Below, piece by piece: positions 27,330 through 41,793 of a DNA stretch of 64,000 nucleotides. How positions within the stretch are numbered: position 1 is the first letter of the stretch; the number at the start of each line of letters is the position of its first letter. The notes below the pieces were generated by a model, which ran no database searches, was not told where the DNA came from, and saw only the letters and a list, made by a program, of their open reading frames with translations. The stretch is taken from positions 434,839 to 498,838 of the forward strand of contig SDOX01000128.1 in assembly GCA_004565275.1 (NCBI GenBank), read 5' to 3'. This DNA is from Nannochloropsis salina CCMP1776 (Eukaryota > Sar > Eustigmatophyceae > Eustigmatales > Monodopsidaceae). A program made the translations under genes and the position numbers.

Positions 27330-34570
<7,241 letters not shown>

Positions 34571-35508
34571 TGTCCCGTGCTGTGTATAATGGAAGGCAAA
34601 TAAGAAGGATGGATATGAGTGAAATTGTACGTGCTCGAATTCATGCTTTATTTTTCTTCCCTCCCCCTTTTTCGTGATCGCATGTCTCTGTTCACGGATG
34701 GAAAACCGACATACTGGTACATGGCAAGGAGGCATAATATACGCCTGGTTGAGGACGTGTCTGCATTGTCAAGTGAAGCAACGTCAAAGAAATGAAAACA
34801 GCACGCAGGGCAGGCCAAGGCCTGGGTGCACGCATCACAAGGCAGGCAAGCCACTGGGAGGGCGTGGAGGAGAATGCCCGGGACCGGCAAAGGGAGAGCG
34901 AACACAGGGGAGGCGGAAGTGGTGACGTGCTGCGTGGCCACCTGCCCCAGACTCACGCGACCCGCATCCCATCACGTCCGACCGCGCTGGCCTTCTTCGG
35001 TTTCTAGCAGGACATGAAGTGGCGAACGTACTCATCTCTTTTCGATGGCCGTTTGGCACAAGGACGGTTTGAGGGAATAGAAAGGCATTTCTTCCATCTT
35101 CATCACAACGGATGCTCGCTTCGGGCGAAAAATGGCGCGAAACCCGGCTTCCCGCTGGAGGCATAGGCATTTGGGGAAAGTTGATGACATGTTTGCGAAG
35201 CGATGGAGAAAAACAATACTACTGTGACTTGGAAAGTGTGTCATAATTGTTCTGTCGACGGGATTGGTGCTTTGTGTTTGGTGTCGATGCTCTGGCCTCC
35301 ACGTTCTTTGTTTTCTTCGCCCCCTCTACCTCCTCCCCCATCCATATGTCCAGGCCCTTCGAAACGTATTCACGACGCTATTTCGCTGAATCATCCTTTA
35401 ATGTAAATCTACCAAGCTATGAAAATAGACATACAGCTCACCGTCATTGACGGCGGGCATAACAATCCGAGATTTACCAATCCGAGAATCCCCTGTTCCC
35501 CCGTTCTA
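34571..35508. other. Intergenic, upstream of ISWI and downstream of the MFS-SEC14 gene
   Basis: About 940 bp between two minus-strand genes. It should hold the ISWI promoter and the end of the transporter transcript. No gene or RNA recognised. Confidence 0.38.
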
Positions 35509-38500
35509 TCACACTAAATGCTTTGCGCGCTCGGTGTTCCCTTCTGCCTTCCTTTTCGTTTTTCTCTTCTTCTTCTTCTTCTGTAAAAATATGAAGGCAT
35601 TCCCGCTGAGTCCGTTGCTGCTATCATCCATCCTCACTGACCCGAAGTCTCCAGTGACGACCAGCTGAAATTGAAGGCTCAGGATGTAGAGACCCACTGA
35701 GCTTAATGCGCTCACGTGCCACATCAATCGTGTATCCATCGGATAATGAAGACCGGCCCTCAGGGACCAAGACAACGTCCATGCACCTAGAAGGGGGCCC
35801 ACAGCTGGGATGGAAGAGGCAAAAGTGGTAAAGAGAGTGGAAAAAGGCCCGGATGGGAGAGGCGACACGAGGCGGAGGAGGGTGGTTGTGGCTGCGCGCG
35901 CGGCAGAGAGGGACGCGTAGACCGCCGTGAGGAGTACAAGGTAAAATATCCCGGCAAAGATGTACCTGGTTCCGGCTGTGATGGTGTTGGAGGGTGAAGA
36001 GGAAGGTTTGGAGGACATGCGTGGATGAAGCCCGCAGATGAGGACGGTGGAGGCGACTAAGACGACGGTCGCGAGGCGGAAGGTGCGGAGAGGATGGGCA
36101 TCGGGTACTCGGAGGAAAGAGGGAGAAGGATAGGCGTGGAGGAAGAAAAGGAGCGTGGTGCCCAGGGAGAGAAGCAGGCCCAGGGAGAGGGGGGTGAGTC
36201 CGAGCCCGCCCTCCTGGTACGGGGAGGCGAGCCACACAGGGACCATGGGAAGGAAAGAGAAGTGGAGAAGGGACGTGCCCAGATAAAGCACGGTGGTCTG
36301 GAGGACAAGAAGTAGGGAAGGCGCCGAGGCAGGGGCAGGCTCGCCGACGTCTCCGAGGCTGTCCGCGTCGGAGCGCGGGGGATGGGGCCGAGGGAAGGGT
36401 CCACGCTCAGAGGGGTCGACAGACGGAGGTTTTGGCGCGAAAATGTGAGGAGACGCGTGACGCGGGTGAGACGAGGGGTTGGGGGCGTGGGGAACCCAGG
36501 ATGAGGGGCATTTGGTCTTGCGACGTGCGAGGTGCTCCGCAATATGGGCCGCTTGAATGGCCAAGACTAAGCCGTCCTCCTCGGTCTTGGGCAACAGCGG
36601 CTCTTCCTCCTCCCCCTCCTCCCGCCCTTCCTCCTCCTTGTCTTCTCTAGTCCCACTCTTGGTTCCGTGCCTGCCCTTGAGCTGCCTTCCGCCCAGAGCA
36701 CCTCCCATCCCCTCCTCCTCCTCCTCCTCCTCCTCTACCTCCCCTTCGTCCCCCTCTTTTTCCTCCTCCCGAAGCACCCAGGCGCCTCGCGCCCGGTCGT
36801 AAATGAACTTGTTGGCAACACCCAGGTGCGCCGTGCGGGGGGTGGAGCGCCGGGTCCCGGGGATGAGGGAAGAGGCCGCGGTCACCAGGGAGGGCAGCCA
36901 GGGGGAAAGCCGCGAGGGTGCCTTGTGCGGGCCGTTCCCGTGTCGGACGGAGAGGTTGGCGTGGAGGGAGGGGCGGGGGGGGGGGAGGCAGGAGACAGGG
37001 AGGAGGAAGCGGAAGGGCCCCGTGGCGGCTTGGAGGAGGAGGCGGAGGAGGGGGATAGACCCAGCTCTTTTACCCCCAGCCCCGCCCATTGCTCCTCCTG
37101 ACCCCCGCCCTCCCTTCCTTCCTCTTTCCCCCCCTCGTGGACCAAGGCCCGCAACTTTTTCTCCTCCGCCGAGTCACCCAGGCCCATCGGAGAGGTTCCC
37201 CCAAATTCACTTGGGAGGTTTTCGGGGGCAATGTACTTCAACAAATCCACCGAGGGTTGCGCCGAGACTTCGATCTTCTCCTGGACTGCCTGCGGCAGGA
37301 CCGAGGCGAGAAGGCGCCAAGCCCCCCCCACCAGGAACGGCACGTTCACCACGCAGATGCGGAGAACCCGACCGGGGTAGTGGGCGTGCATCAAGTGGGA
37401 GGTGGTCCGCAGCACCTCCAGCACGTCCGGTGTGAGGCTGGTCAGCCCCAGGCCCCCTATGTCCAGCACGGTCATCGCCCTCCCGTCGTCCTCCCCCTCC
37501 CCTTCCCGCCGGAGCGCCCGGTACAAAAACTCGTTGAAGTACACGTAATGCCGACCAATCTCCGCCGCGCCGATCCCCCGCTTTCGCAAGGCCCCCAGGT
37601 CCATCCGGCCCGGTTGTTCGAAGACGACGAGTTCGCCCCCCCGACCTCGGCCGTGCACGTAGTGCGGGTAATGCTCCTTGATCGCGGCAAAGTCCGGGTG
37701 AGGCCGTCGGAGGATCCCGTCCACCCCTTCCCGCGCCCGCCACGCCAAGGAAGCCCGGTAGTGCGCCTGGGCCTTGACCCGATCCCCGCCTGCAGCCTGG
37801 AGGAAGGTGGCAGGGACAGGTCGATCCCATTCCGGGCCGGTGAGGTGGGAAGAAGAGACGGAAGGGGGCGAGGCAGGGAGGGAGGGAGGAAGGGAGGGAG
37901 GAAGGGAGGGAGGGAGGGAGGGAGCGCCGGCCTGGAACCGTCTAGTTCCTCCCCCTGGGGACGGGACGGGCGGCGTGAGGGACTCCCTCCCAACTTCCGG
38001 CCCTCCCGAGTCCTTGCGCTCCTGCCTGCCAGAGTCCTTGCGCTCCTGCCTGCCAGAGCGCATCCACCCACCCTTATTCTGAAGCGCTGTGTCCCCCCTC
38101 CCTCCCGCCCTCCGCCACGCCCCCGCCTTCTCCATTCTGCGGAGCACCAGGCACGAGACCAACGTCACGCAGACGGCCGCCGTCACTGAGGATGCCCAGG
38201 CGGGGTATCCGCCCACCATCACCCAGGACCGCCTCGAGAACGTGAGCGCGCCGACGCCCGCCCCAACGACCCAGCCTAAGGCCTCCATGGGGCGCAGAAA
38301 AGCTTCCATTTCCCCCCCCACACGGACCCTGGCGCTGGAAGGGTCCCCCGTATGCTGTCTTCTCCATCCGCCCCGGCCTCCTCCCCGCCCGTCCCTGTCT
38401 TTCCTCCCCCACGTTGTCCTCTCTGCCGCGTGTCCCCAGACCAGCACGGAAGCGAAGCCGGTCCACGCACGCACTCCCAGCAGATACTCCACGCGAGTCA

Positions 38501-38885
38501 CCCAGCCTGTCCCTAGCACCGCCAGCACCAAGATCAACAACCATCCATACACCCTGGCCTTCGATCGGGGGGAAAGCGGGCGCGTCATCCCCAACCTCCA
38601 CCTCACCAAGCGAGCCCCCCACTGTCCCCCCCAAAAGCTGAGCAGTGTCAAGGCCCACCAATATGGCGTGTCCGAAGCATAAAAAAAACCCGCATTCAGG
38701 CGTCGGTCCAGAAAGGATGGTGCGAAAGGGACCATAAAGGATGCAAGAAAGGCATTGCCTAGATCGGCCAGGCCAGCTATCTGATGTCCCGTCGAGTTGC
38801 TCTCTTTGGAACTTTTTCCCACAAGTTCCGTCCTCAAGCCGTCCTGTTGGTGAGGCTGGTACCGGAGAGGCAGCTCTGCCGTCAT
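35509..38885 (-). CDS. MFS-type transporter with central CRAL-TRIO/SEC14 domain
   Basis: Two reading frames on the minus strand, best joined as 38885-37103 and 37028-35509, give about 1100 residues. The proposed junction (GGGG|GTCAGG and CTCCAAG) keeps phase but is weak, so the exact splice inside 36900-37110 is unsure. Residues 1-260 hold six hydrophobic segments (for example LGNAFLASFMVPFAPSFL, YGWLLILVLAVLGTGWV, ASSVTAAVCVTLVSCLVL). A low-complexity linker with PSLP repeats follows. Residues about 355-563 read as CRAL-TRIO: FLQAAGGDRVKAQAHYRASL, then VFEQPGRMDLGAL, YFNEFLYRAL, VLDIGGLGLTSLT, CVVNVPFLVGGAWRLL and YIAPENLPSEFGGT. SEC14 domains bind phosphoinositides and other lipids. A beta-rich stretch ending VANKFIYDRARGAWVL may be GOLD-like. 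After an acidic linker come six more membrane segments and a Lys/Arg tail. The 6+6 pattern suggests a major-facilitator fold; the substrate is unknown. Confidence 0.72.
37872..37924 (-). repeat. GGGA-type coding minisatellite in the transporter linker
   Basis: Repeats of GGGAGGGAGGAA and shorter variants on the + strand encode PSLP repeats on the minus strand, in the linker between the sixth membrane segment and SEC14. Confidence 0.75.
38008..38055 (-). repeat. Exact 24-bp tandem duplication in the transporter linker
   Basis: Two identical 24-bp units beginning GAGTCCTTGCGCTCCTG on the + strand encode an eight-residue repeat (RQERKDSG) in frame. Confidence 0.9.
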
Positions 38886-39523
38886 GATAGGTAAGATTTT
38901 GGAGTGTTTTAGACAGGGGAGAAGTGTGTCATTCTCATTGCAGTGGTTGACCGCAAGTCACGATCCCGCTTGGTTGTTGCCGGTGGAGGGGGGAGGTAAT
39001 GCGTCATGCCTTTTCTCGTCGTGGCAGGAAAATGTCCTTTGATGGGGCGACCTCGCTGTGAAGGAGAAGTGGTCAATTAAAGGCGTGGTAAGCAGCGGCA
39101 GCCGACGGAACACAATGGTGGAGGCGTGCAATACGGACCTCGCAAAGAAAAATATTAACCAAATGTGTCGCGTCTCCTTCTCGCCTCGCTCGCTCAACTC
39201 AGGCTTTGTAGCAGGGGGAGGCGGGTACTCGTATACCACGCAAACGCGGGTGTCAATCCGTCCCTTGATCTCATGCTGTCGTCCACACATGCTCAACATC
39301 GTTTCCTTGAAGTCTCCGGCTGTCCCGAGTGTGTTGGGTGGATAGTTTTGGAGTTCCAGCCCCCCAAATCCTTAGGGCCCGTCTGCCATGTGTGACGGGG
39401 AATGAGAAAGTGCTTCTCCCTCATGCCCTTCAACTATCTCCCGCACACGCAGCACCAAGCACCCTAAGTACCCTCCGCGCTCCTGTACCGACGCACAGTT
39501 GTCGGACGGGTGGCACGCATGAT
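38886..39523. other. Divergent promoter region, MFS-SEC14 / CCA-adding enzyme
   Basis: About 640 bp without a recognised gene. The frame of the CCA enzyme stays open upstream to about 39329 but offers no earlier in-frame ATG. Confidence 0.4.
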
Positions 39524-41793
39524 ATGAGGGCCATGTTCATGCTCTTCATACGTCTGTCACCTTTCCCCTTCATTTATCTCCTCTTGATGATGCTGGCCTC
39601 CTCCACTGTGGTCAGCTCCCTTCGCCGTTCCTACAGCCTGGCCATGACTAGCACAGCCGCAGCGACTGGGACGTTGTTACTTCCCCCAAAATCTCACATG
39701 CGCGTTTTGCCGGCTTTTGTTACCCTCCCTCCCCTCTCCTTGGCCCCACTGCCCCTCCATGCATGCGGCAGCAAGATGGGCTCCGGCGTCCCCGACTTCT
39801 GGCTCACGGGGGGAAGCCCGAAGGCGAGCAGCAGTTGTCAAAGTCGTCCCCAGGCTCCTTCCTCGCGCCTTGCGGCGGTCGTTTCTAGAAGCACCAGCCG
39901 GAGCAAGGCCACTTCCAGCATCGACAAGCGCACTGCGGGAGTGGGCGGAGGAGACGGCATGGATACTGCGGGGGGGCGCGAATCTCCTTCCATCCCTTTG
40001 TCCCCGGCAGAGAGCAGGCTCTTCGAAACCATGCTGGCCGTGGTGAAAGACGAGAATCTGGGAACGACCTTGCGGGTGGCGGGGGGCTGGGTGCGGGACA
40101 AGGTGTTGGGGCACTGGAGCGCAGATGGCGAGGTAGATATTGACATTGCCTTGGACAACTTGATGGGCTCTGACTTCGCCGCGATGCTGAATGGGTGGCT
40201 GGCTAAGCGGGGGCGTCAAGTATACAATGTGGGGATCATCAGCGCGAACCCGACGAAGAGCAAGCATTTGGAAACGGCGACCATGCGGGTGGGCTCCTTT
40301 TCCATCGACTTTGTGAACCTGCGGACAGAGGCGTACACGGACGAGTCTCGCATTCCATCCATGGGCATAGGAAGTCCAGAGGAGGATGCCATGAGGTAGG
40401 GAAAGAGGGAGGAAGGGAGGAAGGGAGGGAGAGGGGAAGAGCGAAACTTGCGGTCGCCAGGTGGCGGTGAGGGTCCGACTGCCGGATCCAGCGTCCTGAT
40501 CAAATACCGCGTTGCTTTGACTTAATCTTTGCCTGCCTTGTGGCATTTCACGGGCACAGGCGTGACCTGACCATCAACGCCCTCTTCTACAACCTGCACA
40601 CGGGCCAAATCGAAGACTTCTGCGGCCGGGGCCTTCGGGACATGCGGGAAGGCGTGATCCGGACCCCCCTCCCTGCCCTCACCACCCTCCTAGACGACCC
40701 CCTCCGCGTGCTCCGGGCCGTGCGCTTCGCTTCCCGCCTGGCTTTTTCCATCAGCGACGAACTCGTCGTCGCCGCCTCGGACCCCCGGGTGCACGGGGCC
40801 TTGGCCCATAAAGTCAGCCGGGAGCGGATCGGATCGGAGGTCGATCTGATGATGCGGAGCGGGCAACCGGCGCGGGCGATGGGCTTAATTGCCGAACTGG
40901 GTCTGGCAGAAACGGTTTTTCCCGTCCCTTTGACGGGAATTGAAATGGAGGGGGAGGGCGGGGGGGAGGGCGAGGGGAAGTGGTTCCCGCTGGGCTTAAA
41001 AGCGTTGAAGGAGATGGAATTGGGCCTTCGGTTCCGACATTGGGGCCTGTCACCCGCGGAAGTGCGCCTGGCGCTCTACGCGGCTTTGCTGCTGCCGTTA
41101 GCAAACCTGAGGTACCGGGAAAAGACGGGGAAAAAGTTGAATTTGAATTCAAACAAGAAGCCGCTGGAAGTGAGTCGTTACGTGTTCGCCCGCATGCTGA
41201 AGATGAAGGCCAAGGACGCGGACAAGTTGATTCTGCTCCATCAAGTCGTGGATGGCTTCGTCCCTTTTCTGGAGGAAGGCAAGGAGGGAAGGAGGGAAGG
41301 AGGGAAGGAGGGGGGAATGGAGGTGCGGTTGAAACGGGAGCAGATAGGAGGGTTGATGCTGCAGGTTGGCCCCTTATGGCGAGCCGCCCTGCTGCTGGCG
41401 GCTGTCAAGTGTAGCGTCAGGGAGGAGGAAGGAGAAACGAGGGCGCAGACCATGGGCAGGGACTCGTTCGTGAGGACAGGGGCCTCCGAGGGGAAGGACG
41501 GGATAGAGGGGAGGGACGGCCAGGGGGAGGGGGAAGGGGAGGGGAAATTCTCCTACCGACAGGCGGCCTTGCAGGTTTCCGACTACATCCAATCCGCGGG
41601 GCTGTCGGAGATCTACCTACAAGGCCCTCCGCTGGATGGAGAAGGGTTGCGAAGGGTCCTCCCTGGTATTCCCCACGGCCCGCCCTTTCGCCTTGTCATG
41701 GATGCGCAGGTGGGCATCTGGCTGAGGGAGCCGGAGGTAGGGGGGGCAGAGATGGGCAGGCGTCTGCGGGAAGCGTTTCCCGAGTATGGCTGA
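39524..41793 (+). CDS. TRNT1: CCA tRNA nucleotidyltransferase (poly(A) polymerase family)
   Basis: Exons 39524-40395 and 40560-41793, phase 2 (AG|GTAGGG donor, GCACAG acceptor), give about 701 residues. The enzyme adds or repairs the 3' CCA end of tRNAs. Visible class II features are RVAGGWVRDKVLG, the metal-binding DID pair in GEVDIDIALDN, and DFVNLRTEAY. Intron 1 falls within the AMRRDLTINALFYN motif. Next come DDPLRVLRAVRFASRLAF and the neck and body helices. Body inserts are Gly/Glu/Arg-rich and purine-coded. A leader of about 165 residues precedes the domain. It begins MRAMFMLFIRLSPFPFIYLLLMM, a signal-peptide-like helix, with later Met codons (such as MTSTAAATG near residue 45) that could start a form lacking it. 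Such a layout would allow organelle and cytosol supply from one gene, but this is inference. Confidence 0.9.

Follow-up and report, generated by a model that had tools for sequence, protein, structure and literature searches.

Can a soluble lipid-binding module be built into the middle of a membrane carrier, and if so, what would it do there? This question is raised by one gene of Nannochloropsis salina CCMP1776, found at positions 35509-38885 on the minus strand of the window, by which we mean the whole stretch of 64,000 nucleotides analyzed here (contig SDOX01000128.1, positions 434,839 to 498,838). Sec14 proteins and membrane transporters usually occur as distinct polypeptides, and the way in which soluble lipid carriers deliver their cargo to machinery in the membrane is still debated. 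The gene encodes a hydrophobic half, a Sec14 module, a linker with short motifs, and a second hydrophobic half. We propose, with a probability of roughly 45%, that its product is a carrier with a tethered cytosolic Sec14 domain that gates it or exchanges ligand with it. No Sec14-transporter fusion is named in the literature searched, many journals being outside its coverage, and the words 'transporter', 'transmembrane' and 'major facilitator' do not occur in the accessible part of PMC3313917.

The coding sequence is spread over two open reading frames (ORFs) of the minus strand, which share 36882-37089 but are not in the same frame. ORF1 (38885-36882, 667 residues) encodes the first hydrophobic half, followed by a CRAL_TRIO domain, and ORF2 (37089-35509, 526 residues) a linker followed by six hydrophobic segments. 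The features of the locus are:

35509..38885, minus strand: whole gene, with membrane half 1, Sec14 module, linker motifs and membrane half 2
38115..38780, minus strand: membrane half 1 (residues 36-257), in which five segments pass the hydropathy threshold and segment 2 is placed by alignment
37176..37820, minus strand: complete Sec14-like module including the N-terminal helices (residues 356-570)
37197..37676, minus strand: Pfam CRAL_TRIO core (residues 404-563, E 1.7e-20)
36975..36985: run of 11 G on the plus strand (C on the minus strand), site of the frame change between ORF1 and ORF2
36778..36825, minus strand: linker motif LGxxNxFx(Y/F)D...W, conserved and also present in a second gene, L025
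36520..36585, minus strand: helix motif TEEDGLVLAIQAAHxAEHL, between an acidic stretch and membrane half 2
35659..36315, minus strand: membrane half 2, six hydrophobic segments by hydropathy

Because the two frames meet at the 11-base G/C run, a difference in homopolymer length is a simpler explanation than an intron. Many GT-AG pairs would be able to join both frames, but such an intron is disfavoured, since the database protein P0001, nearly the same sequence as the window, passes from CRAL-TRIO into the second half across the poly-C junction in a single frame without any. Over the shared part, one substitution and the junction itself are the sole differences between P0001 and the window protein (identities of 143/143 in the Sec14 part, 142/143 in linker 2 and 240/240 in half 2). 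A second relative, P0002, carries the full order of membrane half, Sec14 and membrane half in a single frame of 1032 residues. Given these two uninterrupted frames, ORF1 and ORF2 are most simply read as one gene split over two frames in the assembly. That they are instead neighbouring genes, coding for half 1 with Sec14 and for half 2 as separate proteins, is highly improbable: the ORFs are indeed frame-shifted and overlapping in the assembly, but in P0003 as well as in P0001 a single frame joins CRAL-TRIO to half 2, P0002 is entire, and L025 shows the same order. The single gene proposed in the earlier note is supported by P0001 and P0002, and the unusual order that it described is real and conserved, whereas the fold of the major facilitator superfamily (MFS) type that it assumed for the two halves found no support in any sequence test.

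All relatives are database protein predictions. With both frames joined as one query, we obtained five proteins out of 8000 scored candidates; further searches, each scoring the 8000 candidates with the most words in common, gave four and two proteins, among which there was no fused protein from another named taxon. No relative was confirmed in viral contigs, and P0007 (E 2.3e-7) was set aside as a different Sec14 protein. Six relatives other than P0002 are partial (P0001, P0003, P0004, P0005, P0006 and P0008). P0003 runs from Sec14 to the end, P0006 covers half 1 and Sec14, P0008 half 1 only, and P0005 extends from Sec14 to about segments 7-8, where its frame appears to be lost. P0004, annotated as 'sec14 cytosolic' and the sole relative named by organism (Nannochloropsis oceanica), includes segments 5-6, Sec14, the motifs and segments 11-12. 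P0002 holds a stretch of 26 residues without counterpart in P0006 that may represent a retained intron.

Counted against the window protein, identity in the Sec14 part is 135/209 (P0002), 123/179 (P0003), 141/213 (P0004), 126/183 (P0005) and 132/209 (P0006). The corresponding values are 100/212 (P0002), 103/216 (P0006) and 32/54 (P0004, partial) in half 1, and 102/236 (P0002), 125/234 (P0003), 36/62 (P0004, partial) and 62/178 (P0005, frame lost) in half 2. Linker 1 has 11/59 (P0002), 25/79 (P0004) and 14/68 (P0006), and linker 2 has 30/104 (P0002), 45/113 (P0003), 54/127 (P0004), 54/128 (P0005) and 6/18 (P0006). The membrane halves are thus kept over their full length, and better than linker 1.

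By hydropathy, the window protein has five segments above threshold in half 1 and six in half 2. Segment 2, WWALTLLSFWGGQWGARLV, is assigned by alignment to P0002, P0006 and P0008, in which the same stretch passes the threshold. Consequently, of the six segments claimed before the Sec14 module, five stand by hydropathy and the sixth by alignment, while the six claimed after it are all found in ORF2. P0002 itself has six and seven segments by hydropathy in its two halves. The loop charges are inside-positive and, with segment borders assigned by hand, fit a cytosolic location of both ends and of the central loop. From hydropathy and charge, the protein is polytopic, probably with 12 segments and both termini inside.

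This topology and the loop charges make an MFS fold plausible, and we do not claim membership. Pfam found no MFS family at E up to 10 in the window ORFs, P0001-P0006, P0008 or the L025 ORFs, with the limit that HMMER filters discard most matches above about 0.1. Profile searches with phmmer and hmmsearch on the PDB gave no MFS match, and NCBIfam returned 0 families. Comparison of both halves by hhalign with seven MFS frames from this genome, judged against reversed controls, gave no score above control, and half 1 against half 2 was at chance level (E 0.35). A search of the genome with PF07690 gave 11 matches, none at the window gene or L025, 9 of 73 first-look candidates having been scored. 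Two weak matches below cut-off were put down to chance: DUF3959, which half 2 of both the window protein and P0001 matched at E 0.007-0.016 while P0002 and P0003 did not, and Colicin_V, matched by the first ORF of L025 at E 0.017. The structure-match list (VIA) for P0002 shows no MFS chain, but it barely covers the membrane parts and so carries no weight. These uniformly negative profile tests would suit membrane halves of some other fold; yet two halves round a large central loop, with inside-positive loops, fit MFS, although not uniquely, and we consider a different fold unlikely.

For the central module, the match to CRAL_TRIO (PF00650) reaches 73.9 bits, well over the curated cut-off of 22.6, and phmmer finds similarity to yeast Sec14p over residues 359-567 (E about 2e-16), so that the full CRAL-TRIO/SEC14 module described earlier is present. 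The equivalent part of P0002 matches the Sec14p fold, which is complete and includes the N-terminal helices. We mapped through the phmmer alignment ten residues of Sec14p that we take to contact phosphatidylinositol (PI) or phosphatidylcholine (PC), namely R65, K66, Y111, D115, Y122, S173, T175, E207, T236 and K239, the letters at these numbers agreeing with the Sec14p chain. The window protein keeps two of the ten (T175 and K239) and has changed eight; P0002 and P0006 retain E207, and at the position of K239 P0002 to P0006 have either K or R. Because so few of these presumed contacts are retained, a canonical PI/PC exchanger of the Sec14p type is not favoured, and neither is the phosphoinositide ligand suggested previously. 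The Sec14 fold is known chiefly for carrying greasy ligands, and its presence here suggests a hydrophobic one, by which the carrier might be gated or fed.

The segment after Sec14 consists of a short conserved motif, an acidic stretch and the helix motif. Its well-kept islands are HLGxxNKFxFDxxRxxWVL and EEDxLxLAIQAAHxAE, and a helix at 703-723 is predicted for the second of these motifs in a low-confidence model of P0002. It is not the GOLD-like segment once suspected, as Pfam finds no GOLD family after Sec14 at E up to 10. The LGxENxFxYDxxxxxW motif at 36778-36825, also seen in L025, may resemble the Sec16 C-terminal motif; if real, this likeness might tie the protein to endoplasmic reticulum exit sites. 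Pfam detects no Sec16 domain in the window protein, and the one place in this genome that matches PF12931 is Sec31-like by eye and devoid of the linker motif pattern.

Does the same plan exist elsewhere in the genome (26.5 Mb, 103 contigs)? A query of 57 residues around the first linker island matched two places, the window and C52:1054682-1054780 (E 1.5e-6, 61% over 33 residues). The latter belongs to another gene with this plan:

G000:C52:1052800-1058500, minus strand: L025

L025 contains, on one strand, a hydrophobic ORF of 354 residues, several CRAL-TRIO exons, the motif ANLGRENRFVYDEHRRQWVL, RAIQAAH with the AIQAAH core of the helix motif, and a second hydrophobic stretch, with five and seven hydrophobic segments on its two sides. 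Genome-wide searches with half 1 alone and half 2 alone of the window protein matched only the window gene, so the membrane halves of L025 must be strongly diverged. A BLASTP comparison of its C-terminal ORF with P0001 gave significant similarity (E 1e-7) confined to the Sec14 end. The first half of L025 (GGALCGRFGCRPS) reads, by eye, nearer to a classical MFS loop 2-3, with no MFS reported by Pfam.

A control set of 21 loci (19 plus L025 and the window gene) covers all 23 CRAL_TRIO matches of the genome. The LGxxNxF pattern occurs in the window gene and L025, that is in 2/21 loci, by a search that would miss a motif split by an intron. The same two loci are those in which each side has five or more hydrophobic segments, by a crude count that for L040, cut by a contig end, covers the upstream side. 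A pattern for IQAAH with L or I three residues before it matched L025 only, the window motif having been read from the sequence. Two other loci were dropped by eye: L027 (4+6 segments), an ordinary Sec14 gene whose neighbours are unrelated, and L037 (2+5 segments), rejected as a fused gene. L010/L029 (G000:C2) and L037 (G000:C70:1141000-1150000) are Sec14 proteins with, by eye, hydrophobic stretches before CRAL-TRIO. In a tree of 16 CRAL-TRIO sequences from 11 of the 21 loci, the soluble L032 joins the window family (97/98). The starred branch requires the label to change twice. A loss of the membrane halves in L032 could explain this, as could a more complex history.

How could such a protein work? 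Because the central loop would face the cytosol, flexible linkers would hold the Sec14 domain beside the cytosolic mouth of the membrane part. The two halves could operate as an alternating-access carrier of the MFS type, and the Sec14 pocket would load a hydrophobic ligand, not primarily PI or PC. The ligand load might then gate the adjacent carrier, as SPX may do in SPX-MFS carriers, or the domain might exchange lipid with it. A more specific version, in which the protein represents a new family of lipid carriers whose Sec14 domain takes a hydrophobic molecule from a membrane or the cytosol and hands it directly to, or receives it from, the transport path of an alternating-access transporter, is tentative and on balance doubtful; if true, it would place cytosolic lipid transfer and transmembrane movement within one polypeptide. 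Conversely, the Sec14 domain could be a sensor of ligand load only, the transported solute being a small polar compound or an ion. The position in the central loop and the long acidic linkers would agree with this; Sec14 folds, however, carry mainly greasy ligands, and we regard a pure sensor as distinctly unlikely.

The strongest challenge to any carrier is that the membrane halves may form a degenerate scaffold that transports nothing, the protein being in essence a membrane-anchored Sec14 factor for lipid transfer or presentation. The want of a recognisable MFS profile speaks for it, as do the hydrophobic stretches seen by eye before CRAL-TRIO in L010/L029 and L037. Yet the halves are 43-53% identical to those of P0002, P0003 or P0006 over their full length, and a simple anchor would need fewer conserved segments. 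We therefore place a carrier above a passive anchor, because both halves are conserved throughout and better than linker 1, and judge the scaffold improbable, if less so than the other alternatives. Several points nevertheless weigh against a carrier with a tethered Sec14 domain. Conservation is clearly lower in the halves (43-53%) than in the Sec14 part (63-69%), and for linker 2 identity is 29% in P0002 but 40-43% in P0003, P0004 and P0005, so that the contrast between halves and linkers is valid for linker 1 only. The complete order is found in a single frame in one of seven database relatives (P0002), and is known from genome sequence and predicted proteins. Segment 2 of the window protein is under the hydropathy threshold, no sequence test detects MFS in the two halves or among the relatives, and the MFS loop 2-3 signature is, by eye, degenerate. 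The AlphaFold model of P0002 is too poor (mean pLDDT 42.4, pTM 0.29) to decide the fold of the membrane halves. Finally, the domain of L025 falls outside the supported group (97/98) of the window family and L032, and a single origin of the fusion is consequently not supported.

Elsewhere in the window, 32724-34735 on the minus strand encodes an SNF2-type remodeller: within ORF 33623-34735 lie an HMG box (HMG_box_2, E 8.9e-12) and, below cut-off, the beginning of an SNF2 domain, of which ORF 32724-33071 has a further part (E 7.9e-22). On the plus strand, 39329-41793 carries a poly(A) polymerase head domain over two ORFs and is likely a tRNA nucleotidyltransferase-like gene.

Nannochloropsis oceanica is an alga with laboratory genetics, and a one-chain version, with a partial relative annotated in that species and a second gene in the genome of the window protein, would make hand-over or lipid gating of a carrier directly testable with one protein. 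Closest to hand for comparison, L010/L029 and L037 share CRAL-TRIO and hydrophobic stretches with the window protein but are without LGxxNxF, have three and two upstream segments, respectively, and no second membrane half was recognised in them. Sec14-GOLD proteins also have an extra conserved segment after Sec14, unlike the present one in being GOLD. In SPX-MFS phosphate carriers, SPX may gate the carrier, and the parallel drawn in the earlier note holds for the idea of a soluble regulatory module and a carrier in one chain; it does not extend to the domain itself, as Pfam finds no SPX at E up to 10, the module here being Sec14 and central, and MFS unproven. Yeast Sec14p is the nearest match for the module, with 61/207 aligned residues identical and the N-terminal helices included, but that of the window protein sits between two membrane halves.
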